Part shown: in pieces, positions 7,145-36,314 of the stretch | Layout: every line of letters starts with the position of its first letter | How positions within the stretch are numbered: the stretch's first letter is position 1 | NCBI RefSeq assembly: GCF_000014225.1 | Contig: NC_008228.1 | Span: 124,001-188,000 of the forward strand | Source: Paraglaciecola sp. T6c | GTDB lineage: Bacteria > Pseudomonadota > Gammaproteobacteria > Enterobacterales > Alteromonadaceae | DNA length: 64,000 nucleotides | Reading direction: 5' to 3' | The notes under the pieces: model-generated | What the model was told of the DNA's origin: nothing | What the model saw: the letters and a program-made list of their open reading frames with translations, nothing else | Database searches by the model: none | Translations under genes and position numbers: made by a program

Positions 7145-9427
7145 TTACTGAGCTTTTAAGCGCAACTTCGCACCTTGGGTGAGTTGCTGATGGCTAATAA
7201 ATGCCTTACTTAGCGGATCGCCATTAAGTGAAGGCTGTTTTTGCCCTTGGCTCAAAGGGGTTATGATCAGGGTTTTGCCTGCATAATATTTTGAGTCGAG
7301 GTGAATGGTCACTTCGTCAAACGCTGTACTCGTTAGGGCATAGTCCATGTCTCCAGGAGACACAGGGTAAATGCCTAATAAGCTGAAGACTAACCATGCT
7401 GACATAGTGCCAGCATCGTCATTGCCGGGCAGCCCAGCCGATTGATTGGTAAAGTACTTCGCTATCAGCCTTTTTACATGCTGCGCGGTGTTATGCTCTT
7501 GGCCTTGCACGTAGTTAAATAGGTAAGGGTAAGTAATGTCGGGTTCGTTACCCATATCGAAGTTGTTGGTATCGAAGGTGGCGTTTAATGCAGCTATAAA
7601 AGCACTGTCACCACCATTTAACGCAATTAAACCTGGCATATCAAAAGGCACATAGAAGCGGTAATTCCATGCATTGCCTTCAATGTAACCCGGTGCGGGT
7701 TCAAAGTTGCGCCCTAATTCGGGATCGTAAGGGGTTAACCAGTCACCACTGCGTTTTTTCGGGCGCAGCATGCCAGTACTTTCATCAAATAACGTTTTAT
7801 AGTTCTGTGCTTGGGCCAGGTACTTTTGCGCATCTTGGTCGCGACCTAAACGTTTTGCAAGCTGACCTAGAGCGAAGTCCGCCACATAATATTCAAGACT
7901 GGTAGACACGCTACCGTCGAACGGCTCTTCGTCATCAACAGGCACATACCCTAAATTCAGGTAGTCTGGGTTCTCAGGGCGAATAGGGTTGTTTTCTACC
8001 GTGTCTGCGGATTTTTGCATGGCTTGGTAAGCCAGCTCTACATCAAAGGTGTGTACGCCGCGTAAATAGGTGTCAGCAATCATGGCGGTAGCTGGGTCAC
8101 CGACCATGGTTTGGGTTTCCATGCTGAGTAACTCCCACTTGGGTAACCAACCACTTTCTTGATACATACTAAGAGCAGAATCAACCATTTGTGATTGGAT
8201 TTCAGGGTAGACCAAACTTAGCAATGGATGCAGGTTACGACTCGTGTCCCACAGTGAATATACCGAATAGCGATTTTTACCCTGCGTATTGCCCACTTTC
8301 GCCGTGTGTTGCTGGCTCATGATCGGGTACTCGCCGTTCACATCTTGAATGATACTAGGGTGAATTAAACTGTGATACAGGCCAGTGTAAAGCAGCGTTT
8401 TGTTATGCTCGCTACCTTGTACTTCGATGCGTGAGAGTAAGCTATTCCAAGCGTCTTGGGCGTCTTTGCGGGTGCGATCAAAGGCAAAGTCGGGCTGTTC
8501 AGTGTTTAGGTTCTGCCGCGCGTTTTCGATGCTGACATAAGAAATACCTACTTTGACTTCAACTTGCTCGTTAGCCTGTGTATCGAAACGCATGTAAGCA
8601 CCGATATTGTCACCGCTCATAACGCGCTGATAGTTCGGATAAGGCTTGATGCTGTTATTGTGCTGCATCCATTCGCCTTCCACCCCTGTGAACGCTGGCA
8701 TTTTCTTAAACGTGCCCAAGGCTTTGGCTGGTTTACTAAAACGTGCTACGAAGTACACAGGGCGCACGTCTTGGGGGTTATAGCAAAACGTGCCTACCGT
8801 GCGAGAGCCTTCAATTTCTTGCTCAGACACAACCTTGAGAGAGCCGCCGGTTTCGTTGGTTAAGCCTAGGCCCAAATTAACAATGATATTGCTTTGGCCT
8901 GCGGGAAAGGTGTAGCGGCTTAGGCCTGTACGCAATGTGCTGGTGGCTTCTGCCTTGATGCCATATTTATCGAGTGTGGTTTGGTAGTAGCCTGGACTTG
9001 CCTGCTCGTTCGAATAGGTTGAGCCGTATTGCTGGGCGTCTAATTCTAAATTGCCTGCGGTGGGCATGATATTAATGACCCCCAACTCTGGGCAACCAAC
9101 CCCGCTTAAATTCACATGAGTAAAACCAGTCAAAAATTTATTTTCGTGGATGTATACACGTGAATTCCACGCGGCATCTTTTTCAAACTCATTCAGTTTT
9201 TTGTGTTCGAACGCAACGTTAAAAGGCGCAACCGATGTGAGTGCATGAGGGTACTGCGCCCCCGGATGGGTCGCCCCAAAATTGGAGGTGCCAATAAACG
9301 GGTTAACATACTCGGCAGGTGTTTTTTGCGATGTTTCCCCGGTAACGTCGTTAGGCGTTTTCGCAACTGAACAGCCGACACCGGCCAAAGTAAGCGCAGC
9401 TACTGCCATATTGACTAATATTTTCAT
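7145..9427 (-). CDS. GH92 alpha-mannosidase, divergent subtype
   Basis: Exo-acting, calcium-dependent inverting alpha-mannosidase of family GH92, 760 residues. The N-terminus (MKILVNMAVAALTLAGVGCS) is an export signal with an atypical lipobox GVGC, so lipidation is less certain than for its neighbours. Family motifs: NPFIGTSNFGATHPGAQYP, FTHVNLSGVGCPELG, SLWDTSRNLHPLLSL, EGNAWNYRFYVPFD with the putative catalytic acid Glu583, MGNEPDITYPYLFNY and GNDDAGTMSAW. The FxHxxLSGxG block and the NEPD segment differ from the two more standard GH92 proteins of this locus, suggesting another mannose linkage. It is the last gene of the leftward operon and its ATG overlaps the stop of the upstream GH92 gene by 4 bases (ATGA). 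Linkage preference cannot be read with confidence. Confidence 0.93.
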   Translation of the reverse strand: MKILVNMAVAALTLAGVGCSVAKTPNDVTGETSQKTPAEYVNPFIGTSNFGATHPGAQYPHALTSVAPFNVAFEHKKLNEFEKDAAWNSRVYIHENKFLTGFTHVNLSGVGCPELGVINIMPTAGNLELDAQQYGSTYSNEQASPGYYQTTLDKYGIKAEATSTLRTGLSRYTFPAGQSNIIVNLGLGLTNETGGSLKVVSEQEIEGSRTVGTFCYNPQDVRPVYFVARFSKPAKALGTFKKMPAFTGVEGEWMQHNNSIKPYPNYQRVMSGDNIGAYMRFDTQANEQVEVKVGISYVSIENARQNLNTEQPDFAFDRTRKDAQDAWNSLLSRIEVQGSEHNKTLLYTGLYHSLIHPSIIQDVNGEYPIMSQQHTAKVGNTQGKNRYSVYSLWDTSRNLHPLLSLVYPEIQSQMVDSALSMYQESGWLPKWELLSMETQTMVGDPATAMIADTYLRGVHTFDVELAYQAMQKSADTVENNPIRPENPDYLNLGYVPVDDEEPFDGSVSTSLEYYVADFALGQLAKRLGRDQDAQKYLAQAQNYKTLFDESTGMLRPKKRSGDWLTPYDPELGRNFEPAPGYIEGNAWNYRFYVPFDMPGLIALNGGDSAFIAALNATFDTNNFDMGNEPDITYPYLFNYVQGQEHNTAQHVKRLIAKYFTNQSAGLPGNDDAGTMSAWLVFSLLGIYPVSPGDMDYALTSTAFDEVTIHLDSKYYAGKTLIITPLSQGQKQPSLNGDPLSKAFISHQQLTQGAKLRLKAQ

Positions 9428-11652
9428 TTTGGCTGGGCTCCCATTTCAAATACCAAATTTCCGCCGGCTAATATATCACTGTGACGGATAAAGAATTGCT
9501 GCAAAGGCTGACCATTTAGGCTCACGCTTTGAACATACACGTTCTCTTTCGATTGATTGAGCGCTTGCACGCTAAAGGTTTTGCCGTTTTCTAAATGAAT
9601 CTTGGCAGAAGAAACTTCTGGGCTACCTAACACATATTCCCCTGATACCGGATTAACGGGATAAAAGCCTAATGCGCTGAATAGGTACCACGCCGACATT
9701 TGGCCTGCATCTTCATTGCCCGACAAGCCATCCGGGGCGGTATGATAAAGCTCGTCCATCACTTGGCGTACGTATTTTTGTGTTTTGTAACCCTTGCCAA
9801 CGTATTGATAGAGGTAAGGCACATGGTGGCTTGGCTCGTTGCCATGCACATACTGACCTATGTAGCCTGAAATCCACTCGGGGAACTCGCCCACGGTTTG
9901 CTCGGCTTCGAACATCGCATCCAGTTGAGCTTCAAACGGCGCCGCACCGCCCATTATATCGATTAACCCAGTGACATCTTGTGGCACAAAGAAGCTGTAT
10001 TGCCAAGCGTTGGCCTCGCAGTAGTCCTCTGGATGGTAGGCATTCGGGTCGAAATCGCTGCGAAAATCACCATTTACGCTTTTGGCACGCATAAACTCGC
10101 TTAGTGGGTCGAATAGGTTACGATAGTTTTGCCCTCGTGATTGGTACGTTTGATACACCTCATTTTCACCTAAGGAACTGGCCAACTGAGCAATCGCCCA
10201 ATCATCAAAGGCATATTCCAAGGTTAGCGATACGTTCCAACTACGTTCTTCAAAGGGCACATAGCCTAATGCTTGATAACTCTCTAAACCGAACTCATTT
10301 TGAGTGGCGCTTTGTATAGCTGCTGCCAGTACTTCTTCCCCGCTGGCGTCTAGCAGGTCTTTGAAATAGGCATCGATAAGCACAGGGACACTGTGGTAAC
10401 CCATCATCATGTCTGTTTCATTGCCTTGAAAGTTCCAAACGGGTAGGCGACCTGCCACATCGTAATGCGCCATGATCGAAGCCATGAGCGCTCGGGTGCG
10501 AGTGGGTTCAACAATGGTTTTCCATGGGTGTAAGGCACGAAATGTGTCCCACAAAGAGAAGAACTCGTATCTAGGGTAGCGTTCACTTTTATGAACTTCG
10601 CCGTCAGGGCCTTTATATTCCCCGTTACTGTCGGAAAACACCCGAGGTGCTAACGCAGTGTGATACATGGCCGTATAAAACTGGATCATGTCATCTTTGT
10701 CAGCGCTTATTTCTACTGTGCTAAGTTGCTCTCGCCATGCTTGCTGGGCAAGCGTTTTTACTTGTTCAAAGGTTTTAACTGGTCCTTGGGCAAGCAGGTT
10801 TTGCTTGGCGTTCTCTATGCTGACTGAGCTAATAGCGGTGCGCACAGTAACAAGCTTTTGGCTGCTGACCTCAGAGAAATCAAAATCGAACTCCGCCGCT
10901 ATATTTTCACCAGAGGCTGATTGCTCTTGGCTTGTCACTCCGTTTGTGTTCAAGGTGTAGCGATCAATCGGCTGTGAAAACTGACTGTAAAAGAACACGC
11001 GCTGATCGCTAGCCCAGCCAGTGGATTTGCGGTAACCAGCGATGGTCTTATCATTGATAATTTGAATGTGAGTCTCTAGGGTTTTATCCCAATTTCGACT
11101 GTAGCCTAAGTCTACGCGTACCACGCCCTGGGTTGCATCATCAGCAAACTGGTATTTCTGAAAACCGGTGCGAAGCCCTGCGGTTAGCTCTACATTCACC
11201 CCGTAATCATCTAAAAACACCTGATAATACCCAGGTGATGCTTGCTCATTTTGATGGCTAAAACGAGAGACAATGGTGCCATTCTCAGGGCCACCTTCGG
11301 TTTTTTCTCGATGAAAAGGTCGGGTTAAAGGCATGAATGAAATGTCATACAAATCACCGGCCCCCGTGCCAGATAAATGGGTATGACTAAAACCAGCAAT
11401 GATGTTATCGGGATAAAAATAACCTGAAATCCAATCCCAGCCCGTGCGCCCATTATCTGGGCTTAGTTGCACCATGCCGTAAGGCACGGTAGCACCGGGA
11501 TAGGTTTTGCCTTTGCCGTCAGTGCCGATAAACGGATCCACATAATCTAAGGGATCAATTGCCTGAGGCGTGTTTACGGTGGCGTCTGGAGTCGGCTGCG
11601 TACATGCGCATAACGCCAACACAGCGCCGGTAATGAATATCTGTTTCATCAT
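9424..11652 (-). CDS. GH92 alpha-mannosidase lipoprotein
   Basis: Family GH92 alpha-mannosidase of 742 residues. The signal MMKQIFITGAVLALCACTQ has a usable lipobox (LCAC) with Thr at +2, which favours outer-membrane sorting. Standard motifs: DPFIGTDGKGKTYPGATVPYG, SHTHLSGTGAGDLYD, FFSLWDTFRALHPW, CEANAWQYSFFVPQD with putative acid Glu546, HGNEPSHHVPYLY and GNEDAGQMSAWYLFSALGFY. These match the common GH92 type in which alpha-1,2-mannosidases are frequent, so it may trim the outer arms of high-mannose glycans; that is inference. It starts 12 bases after the epimerase gene and is translationally coupled to the next GH92 gene. Confidence 0.94.
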   Translation of the reverse strand: MMKQIFITGAVLALCACTQPTPDATVNTPQAIDPLDYVDPFIGTDGKGKTYPGATVPYGMVQLSPDNGRTGWDWISGYFYPDNIIAGFSHTHLSGTGAGDLYDISFMPLTRPFHREKTEGGPENGTIVSRFSHQNEQASPGYYQVFLDDYGVNVELTAGLRTGFQKYQFADDATQGVVRVDLGYSRNWDKTLETHIQIINDKTIAGYRKSTGWASDQRVFFYSQFSQPIDRYTLNTNGVTSQEQSASGENIAAEFDFDFSEVSSQKLVTVRTAISSVSIENAKQNLLAQGPVKTFEQVKTLAQQAWREQLSTVEISADKDDMIQFYTAMYHTALAPRVFSDSNGEYKGPDGEVHKSERYPRYEFFSLWDTFRALHPWKTIVEPTRTRALMASIMAHYDVAGRLPVWNFQGNETDMMMGYHSVPVLIDAYFKDLLDASGEEVLAAAIQSATQNEFGLESYQALGYVPFEERSWNVSLTLEYAFDDWAIAQLASSLGENEVYQTYQSRGQNYRNLFDPLSEFMRAKSVNGDFRSDFDPNAYHPEDYCEANAWQYSFFVPQDVTGLIDIMGGAAPFEAQLDAMFEAEQTVGEFPEWISGYIGQYVHGNEPSHHVPYLYQYVGKGYKTQKYVRQVMDELYHTAPDGLSGNEDAGQMSAWYLFSALGFYPVNPVSGEYVLGSPEVSSAKIHLENGKTFSVQALNQSKENVYVQSVSLNGQPLQQFFIRHSDILAGGNLVFEMGAQPK

Positions 11653-11664
11653 GCTGGTATCCGT

Positions 11665-12852
11665 TTACTTTAAGCCGGTATTGCCGAGCGTGCGCAATAC
11701 TTCGAAACACGCGCCCAAGGTGTGGTAGTCACACTTAGCGCCCGCAGCACTTTTCTGCTCACTGTATTTACTGTTATCTCGATGAAGTACTCTGAACCAA
11801 GCACCGTATTGATGATCAATCATATGCTCCCAGCTGTAGTCCCAGAGCGCATTGTATTGAGTGAGGTATTGCTCATCTTGGGTGACTGAAAATAACATCG
11901 CAGCTGCGGCAAAGCTCTCTGCCTGTACCCAGAAGTATTTGTCGTCGTCACACCAAGTGCCATCGGGTGCGAAACCGTAAATTAACCCACCGTGGGTGGC
12001 GTCCCAGCACTTTTCATAAGCGCGATCGAATAAGCTTTTCGCCCGCTCAACCAGTTTTTGATCTGGGGCATGGCGATGCAAAATTAACAGCAACTTGGTC
12101 CACTCTGTTTGATGGCCGGGTTGAAACCCCCAAGGACGATACAGATTTTTGGGATCATCTTTGTTGTATTCCCAGTCGGGCTGAAAGTCAGTGGTGTAGT
12201 GTTCCCAAATCAGGCCGTCAGTTAAGTCCGCTTGGCGAAAGGCAATGTTTTCAGCAAGGGTTTGTGCCCGTGTCAGAAACACTTGCTCGCCGCTGGCTTC
12301 ATAAGCCGCCAACATAGCTTCACATAAATGCATATTGGAGTTTTGACCGCGATAAGGGCTGAGTTCACCCGCTGGGCTAATTTCATCTGCGTATAAACCA
12401 AACTCATCTTGCCAAAAACGACTCTCAAGTTGTTGGTAGGTTTTTAGCAGCATGTCGTTGTTGGTCACAATTCCGGCTTTGCGCCCAGCAGCGTAAGCGA
12501 GCAAAACAAATGCATAGCCGTAGGCTTGCTGTGTCATGTCTTGAGGTTGGTTGTCTTGCAGAGTCCAGGCGTAACCGTCAGCATCTGGCTGCCAGTGAAT
12601 CTGTTCGACGAAATCCAGACCGTGACGGGCCATGGCTAAATAATCGTCGCGCTGAAATAGCATGCCTGCTGCGGCATAGTTCACCACTATACGTGTACTG
12701 CTAACCAGTTGTTTAAAGCCTGAATCAAACAGATCGCCGTTATCCATGTAGTTCTGAAAGTAACCGCCTTGGGCGTCTTTCACCCTAGGATCATAAAAAT
12801 TCAAGATATCTTGGCAGTGGGTCATTAAAAATGCGGGGCTGTGATAGTTCAT
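11665..12852 (-). CDS. AGE family epimerase/isomerase, probable D-mannose isomerase
   Basis: Soluble cytoplasmic (alpha/alpha)6-barrel protein of 395 residues from the N-acylglucosamine 2-epimerase superfamily. His247 in PGHQTEW and His377 in YHTLGACFEVL correspond in spacing to the two catalytic histidines of E. coli YihS. The ATG at 12852 is preferred over a TTG one codon upstream. In a mannosidase operon the likely reaction is D-mannose to D-fructose, which would feed glycolysis through fructokinase; N-acetylmannosamine/GlcNAc or mannose/glucose 2-epimerisation are alternatives the sequence cannot exclude. It sits between the FucP-type permease and two GH92 genes, all leftward. Confidence 0.85.
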   Translation of the reverse strand: MNYHSPAFLMTHCQDILNFYDPRVKDAQGGYFQNYMDNGDLFDSGFKQLVSSTRIVVNYAAAGMLFQRDDYLAMARHGLDFVEQIHWQPDADGYAWTLQDNQPQDMTQQAYGYAFVLLAYAAGRKAGIVTNNDMLLKTYQQLESRFWQDEFGLYADEISPAGELSPYRGQNSNMHLCEAMLAAYEASGEQVFLTRAQTLAENIAFRQADLTDGLIWEHYTTDFQPDWEYNKDDPKNLYRPWGFQPGHQTEWTKLLLILHRHAPDQKLVERAKSLFDRAYEKCWDATHGGLIYGFAPDGTWCDDDKYFWVQAESFAAAAMLFSVTQDEQYLTQYNALWDYSWEHMIDHQYGAWFRVLHRDNSKYSEQKSAAGAKCDYHTLGACFEVLRTLGNTGLK

Positions 12853-12931
12853 CAATAATTACTCGCTTATTAGGTTTGCAGCCTGTCGCCAGATTAGGCG
12901 ACAGGGCTTTTCTCATTAAGTGGGATTAAAA

Positions 12932-14209
12932 CTAGCTGGCTACAGGCGCTGGCGTAGGGGCGTCAGCACTTTTCACTTTAGAGCCAAATAGGGCGTACCA
13001 TGCAATATAGACATACGCAGCAACTGGCACGATAAAGCTAAACTGAACACTCGTAACGTCGGCCACGTAACCTTGAATCAAGGGCAATATTGCGCCACCA
13101 ACAATAGCTTGGCACAGTAAACCTGAGCCACGTCCTGTCAGTGGGCCTAAGCCGCGAATGGCCAAGGTGAATATGGTGGGAAACATAATTGAATTGAAGA
13201 AACCGATTGAAATCACACTCCACATGGCCAAATCGCCTTGAGAATTCATGGTGGTAAATAACAAGATAATGGCTACTGCTGAATTAAACGCCAATACGTA
13301 GATAGGCGAAATAATGCGGGTTAGCGCCGCACCAACGAACCGCCCGATCATAGCTGCACCCCAGTAGTAGGAGACCATTTGGCTGGCTTGGCGTTCGTTT
13401 AGCCCAGCTATTTCAGGTTGCGAAAAGTAGTTTACCAAGAAACTACCGATGCTTACCTCAGCCCCCACGTAGGAGAAGATCGCGAGGGTACCGAAAATTA
13501 ACGCTTTGTGAGACCAAATAGAATCCGTGCTTTTCACTTCTTGTTCGGTTTCATTGGCAGTGATGGTGGGTAGTTTTAAAAATTTGAAACCAATAGCTGT
13601 GGCGATCATTACGCCTGCGAGTAACAAGTAGGGTAATTGTACTGCTTTGGCGTCGATGTCTGCGTCTTCAGATGCCACCCCAACTGCGGCAAAAATCAAT
13701 GCAGCACCAAACATAGGGCCAAGCGTATGACCAACAGAGTTAATCGCCTGTGCCAGGCTTAAGCGGCTGGTGGCGGTTTTCTCTGGACCTAACACCGCGA
13801 CATAAGGATTGGCCGACACCTGCAAAATGGTTACTCCACTGGCGAGAATAAACAAACCGAGTAAAAACACTGCATACACTTCGACTTCGGCCGCTGGATA
13901 GAACATGCCACAACCTATGGCGATGGTCACCAACCCGGTAATGATGCCGCGAATATACCCTATCTTTTCAATTAACTTACCAGCGAAAGGCGAGATGATG
14001 AAGTAGGCCCCAAAGAAGCAAAACTGAACCAGCATGGCTTGGGTATAGTTCAAGTCGAAAGCCGCTTTTAAATGCGGAATAAGAATATCGTTTAATGCAG
14101 TAATAAACCCCCAAATGAAAAACAAGGTGGTCATTGCTGCGAAGGCAAAGTGACTGTTCTTCGCGGGCTCACTTAAGGTTACGGATGATTGAGAAATCGG
14201 TCCTGCCAT
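12932..14209 (-). CDS. FucP/NagP-type MFS sugar permease
   Basis: Inner-membrane major facilitator carrier of 425 residues with about 12 helices, from the fucose/glucose/galactose:H+ symporter group. Characteristic stretches are FFIWGFITALNDILIPHLK near residue 30, FAGKLIEKIGYIRGI, LQVSANPYVAVLGPEKTA and LAQAINSVGHTLGPMFGA in the N-half, and MFPTIFTLAIRGLGPLTGRGSGLL in the C-half. Proteobacterial members carry fucose, glucose, mannose or GlcNAc (NagP). Being downstream of a GH92 gene and upstream of the mannose-isomerase-like gene, free mannose released in the periplasm is the best guess for its substrate. Gaps to its neighbours are 57 and 77-79 bases, compatible with one operon. Confidence 0.9.
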   Translation of the reverse strand: MAGPISQSSVTLSEPAKNSHFAFAAMTTLFFIWGFITALNDILIPHLKAAFDLNYTQAMLVQFCFFGAYFIISPFAGKLIEKIGYIRGIITGLVTIAIGCGMFYPAAEVEVYAVFLLGLFILASGVTILQVSANPYVAVLGPEKTATSRLSLAQAINSVGHTLGPMFGAALIFAAVGVASEDADIDAKAVQLPYLLLAGVMIATAIGFKFLKLPTITANETEQEVKSTDSIWSHKALIFGTLAIFSYVGAEVSIGSFLVNYFSQPEIAGLNERQASQMVSYYWGAAMIGRFVGAALTRIISPIYVLAFNSAVAIILLFTTMNSQGDLAMWSVISIGFFNSIMFPTIFTLAIRGLGPLTGRGSGLLCQAIVGGAILPLIQGYVADVTSVQFSFIVPVAAYVYIAWYALFGSKVKSADAPTPAPVAS

Positions 14210-14265
14210 AATTTTTTACTCGTAAAAGGTGCCAGTCGAAACTGGCACGTTAATAAATGGGTGGA

Positions 14266-16696: not shown

Positions 16697-16718
16697 AAAT
16701 TGTAATCGATTACAATTT
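16697..16718. promoter_or_regulatory. LacI-family operator, copy 1 (22-bp perfect palindrome)
   Basis: The core TGTAATCGATTACA (16701-16714) is extended on both sides by AAAT/ATTT, giving 22 bases of perfect dyad symmetry centred on the CpG. Central-CG palindromes of this size are typical LacI/CytR-family operators, and a LacI-family gene begins 219 bases away. It probably controls the leftward GH92 operon. Confidence 0.8.
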
Positions 16719-16795: not shown

Positions 16796-16809
16796 TGTTA
16801 TCGATTACA
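16796..16809. promoter_or_regulatory. LacI-family operator, copy 2 (one mismatch)
   Basis: TGTTATCGATTACA differs from the other two copies at one base of the left half-site. It sits exactly between a possible -35 (16790-16795) and -10 (16813-16818), 127 bases before the regulator gene, so it fits negative autoregulation or looping with copy 1, 95 bases away. Confidence 0.7.
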
Positions 16810-18062: not shown

Positions 18063-18074
18063 TTTCCGGTAAAT

Positions 18075-18088
18075 TGTAATCGATTACA
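18075..18088. promoter_or_regulatory. LacI-family operator, copy 3, at the receptor promoter
   Basis: TGTAATCGATTACA, identical in its 14-base core to copy 1 and with similar flanks (AAAT before, TTTT after). It begins 12 bases after the -10 hexamer, covering the early transcribed region, a classical repressor position. Confidence 0.8.
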
Positions 18089-18236
18089 TTTTATTGGGTA
18101 GGAATTTACTAATTCAGTGTTCTGTAAAAAGCATAAAACAAAGAAAAAATAAGCGGTTACTAAAGTGGGCTGTGACACATGTTCACGGTTACATTTGGTT
18201 AAACGGAAATATCCGATGGCGATTAGGAAAACACAT

Positions 18237-21159: not shown

Positions 21160-21200
21160 TAAATGGAAACGTAAAAGACAGATTGAATAGAGGAATAATA

Positions 21201-24991: not shown

Positions 24992-25031
24992 ACAGCATAC
25001 TTATGTGCAAGCGCAACAAAGAGGATAGCGT

Positions 25032-27772: not shown

Positions 27773-28509
27773 TGATTGATATCGAAATTTGCCTACCTTG
27801 TGATGACCTGGCGCATGTTGCCCAGCAAATTCGTGCCGCACATAGAGGGAAAGCAGCGCGGGTAGAGCTTTGCAGCCATATGGAACATCAGGGACTCACG
27901 CCTAGTATGAATGCCATGCAGCAAGCTAGGGCAGCGGCCCAAGGGGAGTTAATCTTGCTGGCAATGATCCGCCCTCGTGGTGGTGATTTTTGCTATGACG
28001 AGGGTGAAATACTGCAAATGCAGCATGACATCGCTCTCGCTGCACAAGCTGGCATGCAAGGGGTGGTGCTCGGCGCGCTCACACCAGATAACAAGCTGGA
28101 TCAGGGCGCGTTAACTCGACTAATTGCGGTGGCTAATAACGCTAATTTGCAGGTGACATTTCATCGTGCATTTGATGCCTTGGCTGAACCAGCGCAAGCC
28201 ATTGACACCCTTATTGAGCTAGGCGTGCAACGTATTCTCACCTCAGGTTGTGACTGGGGGAGTCACGATACTGCGCAGCAGCATAGCGCACAAATAGCAC
28301 ATTACTTGGCCCTAGCTAAGGGACAAATTGAGATAGTGATTGGCGGTGGTATTGCTCCCGTAAGCGCTAAATTAATAGCGCAGTCTATAGGCCAGCAGAT
28401 GGAGCAACATTATCATTATTCTTTTCACGCTTATTCGTCTGCTCTTATCGACGGGGTGGTACATGAAGACCCTGTTCTACAGTTATATCAAGGCGTTAAT
28501 GACACTTAG
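27772..28509 (+). CDS. CutC family TIM-barrel protein
   Basis: Cytoplasmic protein of 245 residues of the CutC family (PF03932): IEICLPCDDLAHVAQQIRAA, ARVELCSHMEHQGLTPS, LAMIRPRGGDFCYDEGEI, QGVVLGALTPDNKLD, VTFHRAFDALAEPAQA and RILTSGCDWGSHD. The family was named for copper homeostasis in E. coli, but that role has been questioned and no biochemical activity is firmly assigned. Here it is coupled to the GH85 gene (TAATG overlap) and stands in a glycan operon with no metal gene near, which argues for a role in sugar metabolism. The symbol cutC is avoided because copper tolerance is unlikely to be its job here. Confidence 0.88.
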   Translation: MIDIEICLPCDDLAHVAQQIRAAHRGKAARVELCSHMEHQGLTPSMNAMQQARAAAQGELILLAMIRPRGGDFCYDEGEILQMQHDIALAAQAGMQGVVLGALTPDNKLDQGALTRLIAVANNANLQVTFHRAFDALAEPAQAIDTLIELGVQRILTSGCDWGSHDTAQQHSAQIAHYLALAKGQIEIVIGGGIAPVSAKLIAQSIGQQMEQHYHYSFHAYSSALIDGVVHEDPVLQLYQGVNDT

Positions 28510-28636
28510 CTCGACTCTTACCAAGCAGCGTTTTACACAGCAATAATTTCATCGTGGGGATGACTCATTGGGCGGCCCCGCACTCGACTCGACAGCCCAC
28601 TTTACAACATTGGTTTTTATGATTAACGAAGAATAT

Positions 28637-31183
28637 ATGACACAAATGAAGACATTACCCCTAACTGGAACATGGCAGTTTTGCCAAGCCGATAAGCAAG
28701 ACTGGCGAAATGCAGAGGTTCCAGGGTGTAATTTTACTGACTTGCTCGCTCACAATTTAATAGACGATCCGTTTGACCGAGACAACGAATCCCATTTGCA
28801 GTGGATTGAGAAAAAGGACTGGCATTATCGCCGTTCATTTAATGTATCAGCGGCGCAATTGGCCCACAGCGAGGTTAATCTAGTCGCCCTAGGGCTGGAT
28901 ACGTTTTGTGATATTTATCTCAATGGGCAGCACCTCGCTAGCGGGCAGAATATGTTTGTGGGTCAACACCTTGCTTGTAAGTCTTTGCTGGTAGAAGGTG
29001 AAAATGACGTGGAAATTCGTTTTCGCTCACCCATGAACGAAGTGTATCCACAATTTATAGCTAACGGTTTTACCTACCCAGCGGAAAACGACAAAAGTGA
29101 CGAGAAGCTCAGTGTCTTTTGTCGCAAAGCACCTTGTCATTTTGGTTGGGATTGGGGGCCGAAGTTCGTGACGTCTGGCATTTGGCGCGACATTTATTTA
29201 GCGTTTATCGACAGTGCTGAAATCAAAGACGTACATTTTGTACAGCAGGCGTTGTCAGCACAGCGCGCTGATTTTCATTTTGCATTAGACGTCAGCGCGA
29301 TGACAGATTTTGATGCCCAACTAGTGGTGAAGTGCGAACAGGCCCCGCAGTTGAATCAAACCTTAGATGTGCGTTTAACGGCCCAGGCTAACGAGCAAAG
29401 CATGCTGGTTAACTTCACGCTTACCGATCCTAAGCGCTGGTGGCCTAATGGGTTAGGGGAGGCATTTTTATATGACTTTAGCTTTGAGTTAGTCAAGGAT
29501 AAGCAGGTTATAGCCCGTCGCGAGCAAGCTGTGGGGCTGCGGGAAATAGAAGTGGTAAACCAAGCTGATGAAATGGGGGAGTCATTCTATTTCAAAGTAA
29601 ACGGTCACCCCGTCTTTATGAAAGGCGCGAACTACATTCCGGATGACAGTTTTATTCATCGAGTTAATACCCAGCGACATGAGCAAGTGTTTGATGCCGT
29701 GGTGGCAGGCAATATGAATATGTTGCGAGTGTGGGGCGGCGGCATTTATCAAGACGATGCTTTTTACGAACTAGCGGATCGCAACGGCATTTTGATTTGG
29801 CAAGACTTCATGTTTGCCTGCACTTTATACCCAGCAGATGACGCGTTCTTGGCAAATGTGAAACAAGAAGCGGAATATAACGTTAAACGTTTGCGTAACC
29901 ACCCGTGTATCGCTATGTGGTGTGGCAACAACGAAGTCGATATGGCCATCGAAAAATGGCAGTGGGCTGAAAAGTTTGGCTATTCTGATGAGCTGTACGG
30001 GAGACTTAAACAAGATTACATACGTTTGTTCGATGACTGCTTACCCAAGGTCATTAACACGCTTGATGCGCAGCGCTTTTATTTGCGTTCTTCACCCATA
30101 GGTTTTTGGGAAAACGACGAAGACAACAAAGCTAATCATCACTACTGGGGCGTATGGCACGGTGAAGAGCCGTTCAGTGAATATAAAAAGCGTGTGCCAC
30201 GCTTTATGAGTGAATACGGTTTTCAGTCGTTTCCTATTGCTGAATCAACCCACACGTTTACCCGGCCTGAAGATCGCGAACTTGAATCAGCCGTGATGCA
30301 GGTGCATCAAAAGCACCCGCGTGGCAATAAGCTTATCCGTAGCTATATGGATGAAGAGTTCAATGCGCCGAGAGATTTCGATCAGTTATTGTATTTAAGC
30401 CAAGTTCAACAAGCCCTTGGATTAAAAATGGCGTTTGAAGCGCATCGCAAAGCCATGCCATTTTGCATGGGAACCCTGTATTGGCAATTGAATGATACTT
30501 GGCCGGCTGCGTCATGGTCTGGTATCGATTATTATGGTCGTTGGAAGGCGCTGCACTATCAAGCGAAACGCAGCTTTGCCCAACAATTATTGGTGATTGA
30601 CCAAGTGAATGATCAGCTTGAGGTCACCTTGATTTCTGATGATTTACAGCCTTTTTCCGCTCAATTGCACATTCAAGTTTATGACTTCGATGGGTTGGTG
30701 GTGTATTCCCATGAGCAAGATGTGCTTGTGCCGGCTAATGCGTCTTTGTCGCTTACTTCGCTTGCTATGTCAGAACTTGCCTCACAAGCTCAGCCCAGTA
30801 GCTCTGTGTTAGTTGCGCGCTTAATGCATCAAGATGGCCGAGTGCTTAGCCAAAATAGTCACTTTTTTGTAGCCAACAAGGACTTGGCCTTGCAAGCTGC
30901 TGATATACAGTGCGAACAGGTTATTACGCCTGAGTGTTTAACGCTGACGTTTAGCAGCGACACTTTCGTTCGTCAGTTGTATGTCAGTGCCGGCGAGCAA
31001 GTCGGCAATTTTAGTGATAACTTTTTTGATCTGATCCCCGGAATCGACGTCTCGATTCACCTTGCGCTGCCGGGCCTAGATCAACAAGATATTGAGCGCC
31101 TTGGGGCTAAGGTAAGCTGGCAATCGCTACTTGATAGTTTTGCTTCATTAAGCAATGAGCAACGTAATATAGCTGGGTTATAG
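28637..31183 (+). CDS. GH2 beta-mannosidase, cytoplasmic
   Basis: Retaining exo-beta-mannosidase of 848 residues that should split Man-beta-1,4-GlcNAc, the core disaccharide left after alpha-mannose removal. The frame opens at a TTG at 28568, but the ATG at 28637 starts at the family N-terminus (LTGTWQFCQADKQDWRNAEV). GH2 sugar-binding domain about 1-175 (HFGWDWGPKFVTSGIWRDI), immunoglobulin-like domain about 180-290, TIM barrel about 290-600 with acid/base Glu433 in WCGNNEVD and nucleophile Glu526 in MSEYGFQS. No signal peptide is seen, so unlike the GH92 enzymes it works inside the cell. A symporter gene begins 3 bases after its stop. A 127-base gap separates it from the CutC gene. Confidence 0.94.
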   Translation: MTQMKTLPLTGTWQFCQADKQDWRNAEVPGCNFTDLLAHNLIDDPFDRDNESHLQWIEKKDWHYRRSFNVSAAQLAHSEVNLVALGLDTFCDIYLNGQHLASGQNMFVGQHLACKSLLVEGENDVEIRFRSPMNEVYPQFIANGFTYPAENDKSDEKLSVFCRKAPCHFGWDWGPKFVTSGIWRDIYLAFIDSAEIKDVHFVQQALSAQRADFHFALDVSAMTDFDAQLVVKCEQAPQLNQTLDVRLTAQANEQSMLVNFTLTDPKRWWPNGLGEAFLYDFSFELVKDKQVIARREQAVGLREIEVVNQADEMGESFYFKVNGHPVFMKGANYIPDDSFIHRVNTQRHEQVFDAVVAGNMNMLRVWGGGIYQDDAFYELADRNGILIWQDFMFACTLYPADDAFLANVKQEAEYNVKRLRNHPCIAMWCGNNEVDMAIEKWQWAEKFGYSDELYGRLKQDYIRLFDDCLPKVINTLDAQRFYLRSSPIGFWENDEDNKANHHYWGVWHGEEPFSEYKKRVPRFMSEYGFQSFPIAESTHTFTRPEDRELESAVMQVHQKHPRGNKLIRSYMDEEFNAPRDFDQLLYLSQVQQALGLKMAFEAHRKAMPFCMGTLYWQLNDTWPAASWSGIDYYGRWKALHYQAKRSFAQQLLVIDQVNDQLEVTLISDDLQPFSAQLHIQVYDFDGLVVYSHEQDVLVPANASLSLTSLAMSELASQAQPSSSVLVARLMHQDGRVLSQNSHFFVANKDLALQAADIQCEQVITPECLTLTFSSDTFVRQLYVSAGEQVGNFSDNFFDLIPGIDVSIHLALPGLDQQDIERLGAKVSWQSLLDSFASLSNEQRNIAGL

Positions 31184-31185
31184 CG

Positions 31186-32976
31186 ATGATTTTAAGTTGG
31201 ATAGATATACTCGTTATCATTGGTTATTTAGTACTGGTGTTAATGATCGGTTTGTACATTTCACGGCGTGCTAGCCGTGACATGGACTCCTACTTTTTAG
31301 GGGGCAAAACCATTCCCTGGTGGGCGCTTGGGGTGTCAAATGCCTCGGGTATGTTCGATATTGCGGGCACCATGTGGTTGGTGTCTATGTGCTTCGTCTA
31401 CGGTTTGAAGAGCGCGTGGTTGCCTTGGATATGGCCGATATTTAACCAAATATTTTTGATGATTTATTTGTCCATATGGCTACGTCGTTCAAACGTGATG
31501 ACAGGGGCCCAGTGGATGGAAACGCGCTTTGGCACTGGCAAAGGCGCAGAAATGAGTCAAATGGTGGTAGTGATATTTGCCTTGGTCAGTGCGATAGGCT
31601 TTATTGCGTACGCCTTTAAAGGCATAGGCAAGTTTGCCGCGATCTTCTTCCCGTGGGAATTATCACCAGACATTTATGCGTTGATTATCTTCTCGATCAC
31701 CACGATTTACGTGGTCAAAGGGGGGATGTACAGCGTGGTCTTCACTGAGATTTTGCAGTTTGTGATTATGACGATTGCGGCTGTTTCTGTGGGGATCATT
31801 GCCATGTATATGGTGTCACCAGAGCAACTGGCTGCTGCCACGCCTCACGGTTGGGATCAGCTGTTTTTCGATTGGCGATTAGACCTTAACTGGCAAGGCT
31901 TGATTGATAGCGTCAATGTTAAAGTGGAAGAGGACGGTCTTGAGTTGTTCGGACTCATGATCATGATGATGCTATTTAAAGGTGTGCTATCTAGCATGGC
32001 CGGCCCAGTGCCGAACTATGACATGCAACGTATTCTAGCCACCAAAAGTCCCAAAGACGCGGCAAAAATGAGCGGCTTGGTGTCTCTGGTAATGTTTTTC
32101 CCTCGTTACATGATGGTGGCAGGGTTATCTATCTTGGCGATTGTGTACATGGGCCCAGACATTCAGGCCCAAGGTAAGCAATTTGATTTTGAGCAGATTT
32201 TGCCCTTTGCCATCAATAATTTTGTGCCTGTAGGCTTAACCGGTTTGCTTATAGCTGGTTTGCTCGCAGCCTTTATGTCGACTTATGCAGCGTCGGTCAA
32301 TGCTGCTCCCGCATACTTTGTGAATGATATCTATCGTCGTTACTTACGCCCAGATGCAGACAGTCGCACTTATGTGCGTATGAGCTACATAGTGTCTATT
32401 GTACTCGTGGTATTAGGTATGGGCTTAGGCCTGATGCTAGGTAGCATCAACGCGATTATGCAGTGGATCTTCGCTGCCTTATTTGGCGGGTATGCAGCGG
32501 CTAACTTATTGAAATGGCATTGGTGGCGATTCAACGCCTATGGTTATTTCTGGGGCATGTTAGCAGGTTTGATTGGGGCGCTGGTGTTACCGATTGCGCT
32601 CCCCGATGTGCAACCCTTAATGGCATTTCCGCTGCTACTGGTATTCGGATTGGTTGGCTCGATTGCAGGGACTTTACTGACACCCCCTGAATCAGACGAG
32701 GTGTTATGTGAGTTTTATCGAACGGTGAAACCCTGGGGGGCATGGGGACCAATTCGTGACAAAGTCATAGCCTTGGATCCTGGCTTTGCCCCAAACAAAG
32801 AATTTTCTCGTGACATGTTCAATGTTGCTATCGGTATCGTGTGGCAAATAGCCTTAGTGGTGATGCCGATTTATTTAGTGATTCAGCAGTGGTGGTCCAT
32901 GTTGGCAGCCTTTGGGGTCATTGTTGTGACCAGTTGGATCTTAAAAAAGAACTGGTTAGACAAACTCCCCGACTGA
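31186..32976 (+). CDS. Sodium:solute symporter (SSS family)
   Basis: Inner-membrane Na+-coupled transporter of 596 residues with about 13-14 helices. The first helix is followed by RRASRDMDSYFLGGKTIPWW, the classical SSS signature near residue 28, then ALGVSNASGMFDIAGTMWL and further helices including GLTGLLIAGLLAAFMSTYAA, which carries the Na2-site Ser/Thr region. It is tightly coupled to the beta-mannosidase gene (3-base gap) and lies just before a GH92 gene. Because the beta-mannosidase is cytoplasmic, Man-GlcNAc or GlcNAc is the most likely cargo; mannose is also possible. Substrate assignment is inference. Confidence 0.9.
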   Translation: MILSWIDILVIIGYLVLVLMIGLYISRRASRDMDSYFLGGKTIPWWALGVSNASGMFDIAGTMWLVSMCFVYGLKSAWLPWIWPIFNQIFLMIYLSIWLRRSNVMTGAQWMETRFGTGKGAEMSQMVVVIFALVSAIGFIAYAFKGIGKFAAIFFPWELSPDIYALIIFSITTIYVVKGGMYSVVFTEILQFVIMTIAAVSVGIIAMYMVSPEQLAAATPHGWDQLFFDWRLDLNWQGLIDSVNVKVEEDGLELFGLMIMMMLFKGVLSSMAGPVPNYDMQRILATKSPKDAAKMSGLVSLVMFFPRYMMVAGLSILAIVYMGPDIQAQGKQFDFEQILPFAINNFVPVGLTGLLIAGLLAAFMSTYAASVNAAPAYFVNDIYRRYLRPDADSRTYVRMSYIVSIVLVVLGMGLGLMLGSINAIMQWIFAALFGGYAAANLLKWHWWRFNAYGYFWGMLAGLIGALVLPIALPDVQPLMAFPLLLVFGLVGSIAGTLLTPPESDEVLCEFYRTVKPWGAWGPIRDKVIALDPGFAPNKEFSRDMFNVAIGIVWQIALVVMPIYLVIQQWWSMLAAFGVIVVTSWILKKNWLDKLPD

Positions 32977-33008
32977 GTACAAGTTTACGCAAAAGAGTGA
33001 TTAATATA

Positions 33009-35252
33009 ATGAAAAAACAATTTTTAGCGGGCGCATTCTCGCTATGTGCTGTGGGCAGCCTTGCTGGTTGTGCCACAAGCTCAGTTTCTAGCATGCAACA
33101 AGCTTCAGTGCCACAGGCCACAATCGTCCAGGTCGCTGACGAGCAGTTATTACAATACGCAGACCCATTTATTGGCACAGGCGGCCACGGCCACACGTTT
33201 CCCGGTGCAGTGGTACCTTTTGGTATGGTGCAATTAAGCCCTGACAATCCTTCTAAAGGCTGGGATTGGACTTCCGGTTATAACTACAGTGACAACCAGT
33301 TGCTTGGTTTTAGCCATACGCATTTATCTGGCACTGGTGTTGGTGACTTGCTTGATGTGCTTGTGATGCCGTTTCGTGGTGATTACAAAACCCGACGTGA
33401 TAATGAACTAAAGCACGTAGTGAGTGAGTATTCACATTCTGATGAAAGTGCCTCACCCGGATACTACCAAGTGGGGTTGCCTGAAGAGCAGGTTAACGCC
33501 GAGCTAACGGCAACCGAGCGCACTGGTGTTCATCGTTATACCTTTTCAGGCCAAGAAGACGCTAAAGTATTAATCGATTTAGGCTATGCCCAGAACTACG
33601 ATAAATCTGTGGCCACCTTTATGCGTGTGATAGACGATAGCACCTTAGTGGGCTATCGCATTTCAACCGGCTGGAGTGACTACCAGCCTGTGTATTTTGT
33701 TGCCAAGTTTAACCAACCCTTTGCACATCAGTTTTACAAAGAAGGCGAAGCGCTAGCCGGCCCGTTCATCAATGCGGAAAAAAGCGAAGTGGTGCTTAAC
33801 TTTGGTGACATTGCTGATAAGGCTTTGGTGGCAAAAGTAGGTATTTCTTACGTGAGTATTGCTGGAGCGAAGCAAAACTTAGCAGCAGAAGTCGCTGATT
33901 TTGATTTCGATAATACTAAGCGGCAAGCACAAGCACTGTGGGCAGCTCAATTAGGCAAGTTTAACGTCACTGATGATAACGAGCAGGCGAAACGTAAGTT
34001 CTACACCGCGTTGTATCATTCGTTTTTAGCCCCCCAGACATTTAATGACGTTAATGGCAGCTATTTCGGTGCAGATGGCAGCGCCCACAATAGTCAGCAA
34101 TTCAAGCGTTACTCCTTGTTCTCGCTATGGGATACGTTTCGCGCATTACATCCTTTATTGACCATTTCTAACGGTGAGCGGGTCAATGACATGGTCAGCT
34201 CGATGATGGCCTTTTATGACGAAACCGGCTTATTGCCTTCGTGGGATTTAATGGCCAATGAAACCGATGTGATGATCGGGTATCACGCAGTGCCAGTGAT
34301 AGTGGATGCGTACTTTAAAGGGTTGACTGATGTAGACCCTGAATTGTTATTTCAGGCGTTGAAAGCCTCTGCAATGCAAACGCGTTTTGGTATCGATCTG
34401 TTTGCTGAGTATGGTTATGTGCCCTCTGACTTAGAAGTAGAAGCCGTATCGAAAACCCTAGAATATGCTTTTGATGACTGGGCAATTGCACGCATGGCTA
34501 AAGCGCTTAATAAAAACGCTGACTATGCCTATTTCACGCAACGAGCTGAGTCTTATAAAACCTTGTTCGATAAACAAACCGGCTTTATGCGTGGTAAAAC
34601 CCAACAGGGTGAATGGGTGAAAAACTTCAGCCCAACCCATGTAGACCACCGCACGACGGATTACACCGAGGCGAATGCGTGGCAGTACACTTGGTTTGTG
34701 CCCCACGATGTTGATGGCTTGATGGCATTATTCGGCGGTGAAGCGCCATTTCTAAATAAATTAGATACCTTATTTAGTACTGATTCCTTTATGGAAGGAG
34801 ATGTATCACCGGATATTTCTGGCTTGATTGGGCAGTATGCCCACGGTAATGAGCCTGTACATCATGTGCCTTACATGTATTCCCTGACGTCGCAAAAATG
34901 GAAAGGCGAACAGCGCATAAAAGAGATCCGCGAGACCATGTATCGCGATAACCCAGATGGATTATCGGGTAATGACGATGTGGGACAAATGTCTGCTTGG
35001 TATGTCTTTAGTGCTCTTGGGTTCTACCCACTAAACCCAGCCGATGGGCAGTATGTACTAGGCACCCCGCAGTTTGATTCAGTGCAGATCCAACTGCCAG
35101 ACGATAAAGTTTTCACTATTAAGCGTGTGCAATCCGCTGAAGATACGGCTGGCTATGTAAAAGAAGCCACACTTAATGGTCAGCCTGTCAATATGAACAC
35201 CATTAGTCACAGTGAATTGATGCAGGGCGGCGAGCTTATTTTCACTTTTTGA
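33009..35252 (+). CDS. GH92 alpha-mannosidase lipoprotein
   Basis: Fourth GH92 enzyme of the window, 747 residues. An open frame extends upstream into the symporter gene, but the ATG at 33009 gives a proper lipoprotein signal (MKKQFLAGAFSLCAVGSLAGC, lipobox LAGC, Ala at +2). Motifs: DPFIGTGGHGHTFPGAVVPFG, SHTHLSGTGVGDLLD, FSLWDTFRALHPLL, TEANAWQYTWFVPHD with putative acid Glu554, HGNEPVHHVPYMY and GNDDVGQMSAWYVFSALGFY. It resembles the enzyme at 9424-11652 more than the two divergent ones, so it is probably of the common GH92 type. It is the last glycosidase of the rightward arm and is followed by a clear terminator. Confidence 0.94.
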   Translation: MKKQFLAGAFSLCAVGSLAGCATSSVSSMQQASVPQATIVQVADEQLLQYADPFIGTGGHGHTFPGAVVPFGMVQLSPDNPSKGWDWTSGYNYSDNQLLGFSHTHLSGTGVGDLLDVLVMPFRGDYKTRRDNELKHVVSEYSHSDESASPGYYQVGLPEEQVNAELTATERTGVHRYTFSGQEDAKVLIDLGYAQNYDKSVATFMRVIDDSTLVGYRISTGWSDYQPVYFVAKFNQPFAHQFYKEGEALAGPFINAEKSEVVLNFGDIADKALVAKVGISYVSIAGAKQNLAAEVADFDFDNTKRQAQALWAAQLGKFNVTDDNEQAKRKFYTALYHSFLAPQTFNDVNGSYFGADGSAHNSQQFKRYSLFSLWDTFRALHPLLTISNGERVNDMVSSMMAFYDETGLLPSWDLMANETDVMIGYHAVPVIVDAYFKGLTDVDPELLFQALKASAMQTRFGIDLFAEYGYVPSDLEVEAVSKTLEYAFDDWAIARMAKALNKNADYAYFTQRAESYKTLFDKQTGFMRGKTQQGEWVKNFSPTHVDHRTTDYTEANAWQYTWFVPHDVDGLMALFGGEAPFLNKLDTLFSTDSFMEGDVSPDISGLIGQYAHGNEPVHHVPYMYSLTSQKWKGEQRIKEIRETMYRDNPDGLSGNDDVGQMSAWYVFSALGFYPLNPADGQYVLGTPQFDSVQIQLPDDKVFTIKRVQSAEDTAGYVKEATLNGQPVNMNTISHSELMQGGELIFTF

Positions 35253-35268
35253 TATTTAGTAATTTAAC

Positions 35269-35297
35269 AAGGTGGCGCTATTCGCCACCTTTTTTTT
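35269..35297 (+). terminator. Intrinsic terminator after GH92 gene
   Basis: AAGGTGGCG (35269-35277) pairs with CGCCACCTT (35283-35291) around CTATT and runs into eight T residues (35290-35297). It is the best Rho-independent terminator in the locus, yet the SIS gene starts only 22 bases later, so that gene needs read-through or a promoter inside the hairpin region. Confidence 0.85.
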
Positions 35298-35318
35298 GAC
35301 GATTTTCCGGAGACTCCA

Positions 35319-36314
35319 ATGACCAGTATCATGGCAAGAGAGGCTGCATCAGCCTCTGAACTGTTAGCTAAGCAACTTATGCTAAATCATGAAAGTTGTG
35401 AGCGTATTGCTCAGAAAATACAACTCCTTAACCCAAGCGTAGTGTATATAGTGGCGCGAGGTTCGTCAGACCATGCTGGCGTATTTGCTAAATACCTGAT
35501 TGAGGTGGAGCTGGGTATTCCCGTGGTGGCTGCCGCACCTTCCGTGGTGACTGTGTTTCACAAACAACTCAAACTTGATAACGCGTTGGTTATCGGTATT
35601 TCTCAATCAGGACGCAGCCCAGATATTCTTCAGCATATGCAAATGGCGAAAGATGCTGGAGCGCTGTGCATTGGTCTAGTGAATGATGAATCTTCTCCGT
35701 TAGCTAAATTAGTGGATCAGCTTCTTCCTTTACGGGTTGAGCAAGAAGTGGCAGTGGCGGCAACAAAAAGCTATTTGGCGTGTTTAAGCGCCCTTCTACA
35801 ATTGGTGGCGCATTGTAAGAAAGACCCAGAACTGATGGCCGCAGTAAGCGAAATTCCCAAGGCTTTAAGTCTTGCCATAGAGGGGTCGAAGCAATTGCAC
35901 AGTGATATGTTCAAAGGATGTGATAAGTGCATTGTACTTGGCCGTGGCTTTGGCTACGCCATAGCTAAAGAGGTGGCGTTAAAATTAAAAGAAGTTTGTG
36001 CTATTCAAGCAGAGGCGTTTTCTAGTGCGGAGTTTGTGCACGGCCCTGTGGCACTGGCGCAAAAACCTTTAAAAGTGCTCAGTTTAGGATTGCTCGATGA
36101 GTCCCAGGTCGCCCACGAGCAACAAATAGATGACGTAACCCAGCGCGGGGCAAGTGTGCTGAGTATGAAGCCATTTCCCGATGATGTGCATCCTAGACTT
36201 GGTGCATTAATGATCATGCAGCGTTTCTACCTTGATATTGCTGACATATCCCTGCAATTGGGTTGTGATCCGGATTCGCCACAAGGATTAAATAAAGTGA
36301 CGCTAACCGTGTAA
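35319..36314 (+). CDS. Double-SIS-domain protein, probable glucosamine-6-phosphate deaminase (NagB-II type)
   Basis: Cytoplasmic aldose-ketose isomerase-fold enzyme of 331 residues resembling the isomerase half of GlmS but without its glutaminase domain. SIS domain 1 (about 30-165) shows VARGSSDHAGVFAKYLIE and VIGISQSGRSPDIL; domain 2 (about 195-325) shows VLGRGFGYAIAKEVALKLKE and AEAFSSAEFVHGPVAL. In Alteromonadales such proteins (NagB-II) turn glucosamine-6-phosphate into fructose-6-phosphate and ammonia, which fits the end of the GlcNAc branch. CCGGAG precedes the ATG at 35319. AgaS-like activity on galactosamine-6-phosphate is the alternative. Confidence 0.86.
   Translation: MTSIMAREAASASELLAKQLMLNHESCERIAQKIQLLNPSVVYIVARGSSDHAGVFAKYLIEVELGIPVVAAAPSVVTVFHKQLKLDNALVIGISQSGRSPDILQHMQMAKDAGALCIGLVNDESSPLAKLVDQLLPLRVEQEVAVAATKSYLACLSALLQLVAHCKKDPELMAAVSEIPKALSLAIEGSKQLHSDMFKGCDKCIVLGRGFGYAIAKEVALKLKEVCAIQAEAFSSAEFVHGPVALAQKPLKVLSLGLLDESQVAHEQQIDDVTQRGASVLSMKPFPDDVHPRLGALMIMQRFYLDIADISLQLGCDPDSPQGLNKVTLTV

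Follow-up and report, generated by a model that had tools for sequence, protein, structure and literature searches.

The stretch of DNA analyzed here, referred to as the window, comprises 64,000 nucleotides of the genome of Paraglaciecola sp. T6c (5.19 Mb, one contig; window, G000:C1:124001-188000). Window positions 7145-36314 hold a block of genes with predicted functions in the breakdown of N-glycans, among them a glycosylasparaginase (AGA), an endo-beta-N-acetylglucosaminidase of glycoside hydrolase family 85 (GH85), and a member of the CutC family.

Gene content and operator-like sites of the block

Twenty proteins encoded between window positions 5932 and 39506 were scanned with Pfam and NCBIfam. 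The starts of the open reading frames (ORFs) were assigned mechanically, so small overlaps are approximate, and all signal peptides and lipoboxes of the block proteins were judged by eye. Conservation was followed in the GH85 neighborhoods of 26 other genomes of the same family, called relatives below, one of which ends at a contig edge. The features of the block, in window coordinates, are:

7145-9427, minus strand: GH92a (PF07971/PF17678), nearest solved structures 7zgm and 6f8z, lipoprotein-type signal; 23 of 26 relatives
9424-11652, minus strand: GH92b (Pfam), nearest solved structure 6f8z, lipoprotein-type signal; 23 of 26 relatives
11665-12855, minus strand: AGE-family isomerase (PF07221), probably a D-mannose isomerase (NCBIfam, 195 bits, cut-off of 600 not reached); 22 of 26 relatives
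12932-14209, minus strand: major facilitator superfamily (MFS) sugar permease, GluP type (TIGR01272, 347 bits, cut-off 203); 22 of 26 relatives
14266-16584, minus strand: GH92c, alpha-1,2-mannosidase type, best solved relative 2wvx (1062 bits); 23 of 26 relatives
16697-16718: LacI-type operator, by its sequence, a perfect palindrome, AAATTGTAATCGATTACAATTT, in the gap between GH92c and lacI, which are divergent
16796-16809: third operator-like site, differing at 1 of 14 positions
16937-17944, plus strand: LacI-family regulator (Pfam/NCBIfam); 26 of 26 relatives
18071-18092: second operator-like site, AAATTGTAATCGATTACATTTT, a near-copy of the palindrome at 16697-16718, upstream of the TonB receptor gene
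18165-21131, plus strand: TonB-dependent receptor (TIGR01782, TonB-Xanth-Caul, 637 bits, cut-off 310); 26 of 26 relatives
21183-24035, plus strand: lipoprotein with four F5/8C stretches (PF00754) and a lipobox; 26 of 26 relatives
24122-24991, plus strand: NagK-type N-acetylglucosamine (GlcNAc) kinase of the BadF/BcrAD family (PF01869; NF046058, 274 bits, cut-off of 370 not reached); 25 of 26 relatives
25032-26015, plus strand: AGA (Asparaginase_2, 248 bits; 3ljq, E-value 3e-121), HDT185 motif, Tat-like RRRFLK; 25 of 26 relatives
26012-27772, plus strand: GH85 endo-beta-N-acetylglucosaminidase (PF03644, 271 bits), best solved relative 2vtf (E-value 4e-77), Sec-type signal; 26 of 26 relatives
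27772-28509, plus strand: CutC (PF03932, 178 bits, cut-off 23.3), no signal peptide seen; 26 of 26 relatives
28568-31183, plus strand: GH2 beta-mannosidase (PF22666/PF17786, GH2/Mannosidase_ig), no signal seen; 25 of 26 relatives
31186-32976, plus strand: sodium:solute symporter (SSF; PF00474); 25 of 26 relatives
32841-35252, plus strand: GH92d (Pfam), nearest solved structure 6f8z, lipoprotein-type signal; 24 of 26 relatives
35319-36314, plus strand: NagB-II glucosamine-6-phosphate deaminase (NF046059, 533 bits, cut-off 430); only 6 of 26 relatives

A first-pass annotation of this DNA had named the gene families of the block, from the four GH92 proteins to the LacI regulator, and Pfam and NCBIfam placed all of them where it had put them, with large margins. 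Its inventory had overlooked CutC. It had also described a self-contained system for the complete use of N-glycans. The system holds up in GH85, AGA, trimming by GH92 and GH2, entry routes for GlcNAc and mannose, and one regulator with its sites. "Self-contained" does not, since the NagA gene lies elsewhere in the genome (G000:C1:5025072-5026157), outside the 20 proteins scanned, and NagB is in the neighborhood of so few relatives.

The four GH92 proteins score 506-591 bits against PF07971, and the best solved relative of GH92c, 2wvx, is the protein that we take to be BT3990. The GH85 gene is the single match in the whole genome, and its best solved relatives, 2vtf and 3fhq, are endo-beta-N-acetylglucosaminidases. 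The structures closest to AGA are glycosylasparaginases (E-value about 1e-121), while isoaspartyl peptidases reach only 1e-39, and its residues H183, D184, and T185 are unchanged across 10 aligned rows. The AGA, GH85, and CutC ORFs overlap head to tail. The longest GH92d ORF overlaps the SSF gene and carries its lipoprotein-type signal at residue 57; the true start is probably about 33009 rather than 32841. No signal peptide was recognized in NagK, the AGE isomerase, or NagB, as in GH2 and CutC. Neither RNA families (at the gathering cut-off) nor tRNAs were detected in the window. Downstream of the block, two genes with no Pfam match (36606-38251), one encoding a 375-amino acid protein with a signal-like start, accompany it in 2 of the 26 relatives.

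Palindromes of the kind found at 16697-16718 are typical of LacI-family operators. The 16-letter pattern WTGTAATCGATTACAW, allowing at most one mismatch, occurs genome-wide only at this palindrome and at the site at 18071, one before each arm of the block; the same pattern read backwards, used as a control, gave one match per strand. The exact operator 14-mer is present in the stretches from 17 of the 26 relatives, 14 of which have two copies, and is not present in neighborhoods L080-L168, which include CutC loci outside GH85 blocks. Because an operator-like palindrome precedes both arms and is confined to the block, both arms are probably under the local regulator, and these common sites tie them to it, with TGTAATCGATTACA as the candidate LacI target sequence.

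The first-pass annotation had proposed looking for the same genes in relatives. GH85 was found in 27 of the 295 genomes of the family, spread over 12 of its 52 genera and mostly together with the rest of the block. Since the other 26 neighborhoods carry most of the same genes, the arrangement goes beyond chance. In two of them (G081 and G148) no GH92 gene was within the stretch examined. The F5/8C lipoprotein is conserved together with the TonB receptor in every relative, as SusD travels with its partner in Bacteroidota. It is likely a surface glycan binder, judging from its domains, and may be a SusD analogue.

CutC and its neighbors in two phyla

CutC is the most informative gene of the block. 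It occurs in 43 of the 295 family genomes, that is, in all 27 with GH85 and in 16 of the 268 without it (Fisher 2e-27; kinship was ignored in this and the following tests). It immediately follows GH85 in 26 of the 27 and lies at the opposite end of the block in the other one (G225). Nineteen CutC loci are not part of a GH85 block; 16 belong to genomes that lack GH85, and three are second copies. NagK and/or AGA lie within 10 kb of CutC in 13 of the 19 and not in six. By eye, CutC stands between parE-like and parC-like genes in four of these six loci and directly after a parE-like gene in one. A copy of CutC near parE/parC-like genes, a housekeeping-like context, was seen in genus g21 (L083, L085, L086, L088, L097), and three of these five genomes hold another copy in a GH85 block. 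Two other loci (L087, 1206-18725, and L098, 3298-18762) have CutC and NagK, plus AGA in L087, beside a TonB receptor and F5/8C lipoprotein pair; on the other flank, judged by eye, are a GMC oxidoreductase with a Tat partner, a Gfo/Idh dehydrogenase, and a sugar isomerase, as in 3-keto-sugar routes. This set is perhaps another N-glycan or glycoside route. The idea that CutC replaces NagA was also considered and ruled out, as NagA was found in 31 of 31 hand-picked genomes, 29 of them from the 43 family genomes with CutC and two without CutC.

The association extends beyond the family. Among the 80 best-scoring of at least 584 AGA loci, a sample skewed to Bacteroidota, 50 carry CutC, which lies within 2 kb in 49 and within 100 bases in 37; 15 of the 50 pairs touch or overlap by their mechanical ORF ends. 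Many are from Flavobacterium, Chryseobacterium, Elizabethkingia, Pontibacter, and Chitinophaga. In 178 Bacteroidota genomes, CutC was found in 53 (one of them, G715, with a broken CutC frame) and AGA, at an E-value of 1e-60, in 87, and all 53 CutC genomes have both (Fisher 2e-22). At 1e-100 AGA was found in 51 of the 53 (Fisher 2e-22). The two genes lie within 2 kb of each other in 27 of the 53.

CutC is present in 69 of the 398 Pseudomonadota genomes. At 1e-100, a cut-off picked after inspection of the list, it occurs in 13 of the 18 genomes with AGA and in 56 of the 380 others (Fisher 2e-7), and the pair lies within 2 kb in 11 of the 13. At 1e-60 it occurs in 17 of 23 AGA genomes (Fisher 8e-10); both cut-offs were computed for both phyla. 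AGA adjoins CutC in the genomes of coded family f14. Outside the family of Paraglaciecola, 40 of the 64 Pseudomonadota CutC genomes, covering all 37 genera, were examined by eye and with the genes of the window as tblastn queries; only about 10 neighbors were scanned for families. AGA is adjacent to CutC in five of these 40 loci, and GH2 or GH92 genes are near it in two. A NagA-like gene is directly upstream in three, all from coded family f55. In two more, CutC has a ROK kinase beside it, with GlcNAc kinase as the best model, under its cut-off. In L154, L159, and L166, a NagA-like gene overlaps or precedes CutC in amino-sugar operons that include NagB-II-like and GatZ/KbaZ-like or ROK genes, and there is no AGA match in the stretch. 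CutC is thus associated in two phyla with genes of the GlcNAc and GlcNAc-asparagine (GlcNAc-Asn) branch. This association is strong, and it was not found in print among the matches listed.

A tree of 133 CutC proteins, built by a quick method, requires 11 changes of AGA linkage, at least five of them forced by strong branches, whereas shuffled labels gave 38.9. For the labels, all rows from GH85 loci were scored as AGA-linked, although G139 has no AGA nearby and the CutC of G225 is about 20 kb away; L169-L171 were omitted as near-copies. The linkage is clustered, yet it spreads over several deep lineages interleaved with an Enterobacterales-like type. The gene orders AGA-CutC, CutC-AGA, NagK-CutC-AGA, and AGA-GH85-CutC as well as divergent arrangements were seen, and this variation between groups points to a repeated or very old functional linkage. 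One locus titled as a Bifidobacterium breve metagenome-assembled genome (L206) has AGA-CutC-GH2, and on the tree its CutC is placed with Flavobacterium; it is probably mis-binned.

The CutC protein has conserved residues E5, E32, R67, H131, R132, D135, and H219. All of these but R67 were recorded in every one of the 86 rows of the CutC alignment. In a wider alignment (A2), E5, E32, R67, D135, and H219 are present in 39 of 39 rows, H131 in 38, and R132 in 33, with K in the other six; as for cysteines, C34 is present in 39 of 39 and C7 in 17. The protein is probably cytosolic, to judge from its N-terminus. Its predicted model is a TIM barrel (pLDDT 96.6), and the closest non-CutC solved fold is MfnB (E-value 1.5e-9, TM-score about 0.7). 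Other fold neighbors, judged from the best 50 of 1909 matches, are keto-gulonate-phosphate decarboxylase, ribulose-phosphate epimerase, KDPGal aldolase, TrpC, and DERA. The majority of those 50 presumably act on phosphorylated small molecules, with 4lrt and human OGA as exceptions, and the modeled fold of CutC resembles phosphate-binding TIM barrels. Profile searches found no significant sequence kinship to another enzyme family, the best non-CutC matches being sub-threshold (E-values 0.03-0.9).

N-glycan use and the role of CutC

The gene content, the common operator-like sites, and the conservation of the block are direct observations, and its best reading is N-glycan use. In the pathway that we propose, the F5/8C lipoprotein and the TonB receptor would bind glycopeptides at the cell surface, the surface or periplasmic GH92 enzymes and GH85 would trim and then cut the glycan, and the exported AGA would cleave the leftover GlcNAc-Asn. 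The MFS and SSF permeases would bring the sugars in. In the cytosol, GH2 would cleave Man-beta-GlcNAc, the AGE isomerase would convert mannose to fructose, and NagK, the distantly encoded NagA, and NagB-II would convert GlcNAc to fructose-6-phosphate. The activities, protein locations, step order, and regulator binding in this pathway are predictions from the sequences.

The block might instead be a polysaccharide utilization locus (PUL) for alpha-mannan of yeast or algal origin, as published for Alteromonas, with N-glycans being incidental. Its four GH92 genes would fit, and the available part of one paper reports that Alteromonas macleodii AD45, which bears a GH85/GH92 PUL, grows on alpha-mannan (PMC6972757); the part of another that was available interprets comparable PULs as algal-polysaccharide loci (PMC12838423). 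However, the same portion of the former describes comparable growth of strain MIT1002, though the PUL is termed unique to AD45. GH85 and AGA have no known role on mannan backbones, and N-glycans are preferred because both are present. According to the accessible part of a review, characterized GH85 enzymes act on N-glycans exclusively. In addition, no GH76 or GH125 is found among the block proteins and no GH125 genome-wide, the GH76 search being confined to the block proteins. We regard a mannan locus as unlikely, and we consider it likely that the block is one LacI-controlled N-glycan utilization regulon in which CutC serves the GlcNAc/GlcNAc-Asn branch as a cytosolic enzyme.

What CutC would do there is a more tentative matter. 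Hydrolysis of GlcNAc-Asn by AGA releases a glycosylamine, 1-amino-GlcNAc, and CutC may remove the C1 amine of this compound or of its 6-phosphate. This reaction, suggested by the gene association, is possible but doubtful. CutC would act in the cytosol on 1-amino-GlcNAc, perhaps after phosphorylation by NagK, which would fit the AGA-CutC-NagK trio. The pH of seawater is about 8. In the available part of a study of Lactobacillus casei (PMC6960285), 1-amino-GlcNAc is called "not metabolizable" and "unstable at acidic pH", and the loss of ammonium is left to chemistry. That CutC is the missing deaminating enzyme after AGA, for a step deemed spontaneous, and that elsewhere it clears glycosylamines from the GlcNAc pool, is a conjecture which we hold to be, if anything, slightly less probable. 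If true, CutC would close an overlooked step of glycoprotein breakdown, with the same chemistry as in the human lysosomal disposal of aspartylglucosamine, and a large family would be re-annotated.

Several observations weigh against these proposals. The exact operator 14-mer was not found in 9 of the 26 relatives. CutC has no signal peptide whereas AGA has one, so that 1-amino-GlcNAc would need to be imported, and with NagA in all 31 genomes checked the textbook GlcNAc route has no vacant step. No CutC lies within 10 kb in 30 of the best 80 AGA loci, and inspection of these 30 by eye revealed no consistent stand-in gene beside AGA. CutC is missing from 34 of the 87 AGA-bearing Bacteroidota genomes (1e-60) and from 5 of the 18 Pseudomonadota genomes with a strong AGA match, so AGA can work without it. 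The pair is not within 2 kb in 26 of the 53 Bacteroidota genomes, and the four extra Pseudomonadota AGA-type matches gained at 1e-60 in CutC genomes are not neighbors of CutC. No amino-sugar neighbor was recognized in 28 of the 40 Pseudomonadota loci outside the family, Enterobacterales-like ones included. Gene associations alone leave the substrate of CutC unfixed.

CutC might act on another metabolite of the GlcNAc route, GlcNAc or GlcNAc-6-phosphate, and be its isomerase, epimerase, mutarotase, or repair enzyme rather than a glycosylamine deaminase. NagA-like, ROK, or NagK genes adjoin CutC without AGA, the fold neighbors include sugar-phosphate epimerases, decarboxylases, and aldolases, and, depending on the cut-off, 52-56 of the 69 Pseudomonadota CutC genomes have no AGA. 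However, AGA is the closest and most frequent named partner of CutC, and every Bacteroidota CutC genome in the sample has an AGA match at 1e-60. We think this quite possible, if somewhat short of probable, and a broader role on a GlcNAc-6-phosphate-type metabolite is at least as likely as deamination of 1-amino-GlcNAc. The linkage could also be a hitch-hiking relic of one or a few transferred operons and say nothing about function. Operons do move, and the linkage clusters on the CutC tree, but gene order and orientation vary, at least five changes are forced, and co-occurrence persists in the 26 of 53 Bacteroidota genomes where the genes are not within 2 kb of each other, all of which makes a relic improbable. 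As for a copper-homeostasis protein located here by chance, it is favored by the name of the family and by older genetic work in E. coli. Yet AGA linkage recurs in two phyla, and a paper, in the part available, ascribes the copper phenotype of the E. coli cutC mutant wholly to the small RNA MicL; another, similarly available in part, doubts copper binding by a minimal-cell CutC. The copper label is weak, and this explanation is very improbable. The proposed placement of CutC in the GlcNAc/GlcNAc-Asn branch gives an orphan family of bacteria and humans, annotated for copper, a concrete pathway for testing.

Comparison with known systems

No paper joining CutC with glycosylasparaginase was found, and the choline trimethylamine-lyase that shares the name CutC blurs literature matches. 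The only link of CutC with AGA or GlcNAc in print among the matches listed is a remark on Xanthomonas, where CutC, NixI, and the asparaginase XAC3092 are listed, in the part of the source available, as predicted VirK partners. The solved CutC proteins 3iwp (human), 1twd, 2bdq, and 4r9x have the same fold as the CutC of the block, which is a clear family member and differs in being set in a context of amino-sugar catabolism. We know of no established reaction for any of these four.

The L. casei alf-2 cluster for Fuc-GlcNAc-Asn (PMC6960285) also combines AGA with a GlcNAc kinase and an MFS permease, so that the end game of GlcNAc-Asn use is common to both. In the portion of that paper available, AGA is held to be intracellular, the gene list does not include CutC, and the loss of the amine is left to spontaneous chemistry. 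The Xanthomonas nix/nag system resembles the block as a gammaproteobacterial route for N-glycans. The first-pass annotation had set the block apart from it, and this stands: the nix cluster, as described in the part of the source available, includes a fucosidase and a beta-galactosidase, and neither is among the 20 proteins scanned here. The distinction that it drew from Bacteroidetes PULs stands as well. SusD is not among the 20 proteins, so there is no SusC/SusD pair; the receptor, which it had called SusC-like, is so only broadly and belongs to TIGR01782. In the high-mannose PUL of Bacteroides (GH18 BT3987 plus GH92 enzymes), the GH92 series works after the endoglycosidase, according to the accessible part of a review. 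The solved 2wvx is a close relative of GH92c, and the block differs from that PUL in having GH85 in place of GH18, no SusD, and the F5/8C lipoprotein, AGA, NagK, and CutC.

The closest systems are in A. macleodii. The GH85/GH92 PUL of strain AD45 (PMC6972757) and the GH92/GH85/GH2 PULs of the algicidal strains FDHY-03 and FDHY-CJ (PMC12838423), as far as the available parts of the papers describe them, have the same enzyme families, are patchy across strains, and are probably loci of the same kind. The type of locus has therefore been published in outline and is not new as such. The comparison is by description only: the PULs are read there as alpha-mannan or algal loci, AGA, CutC, and the operator are not named in the parts available, and the word "N-glycan" does not occur in either text. 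With the Paraglaciecola block, a known kind of N-glycan locus gains a marine version that lacks SusD, and an alternative reading suggests itself for loci published as mannan PULs.

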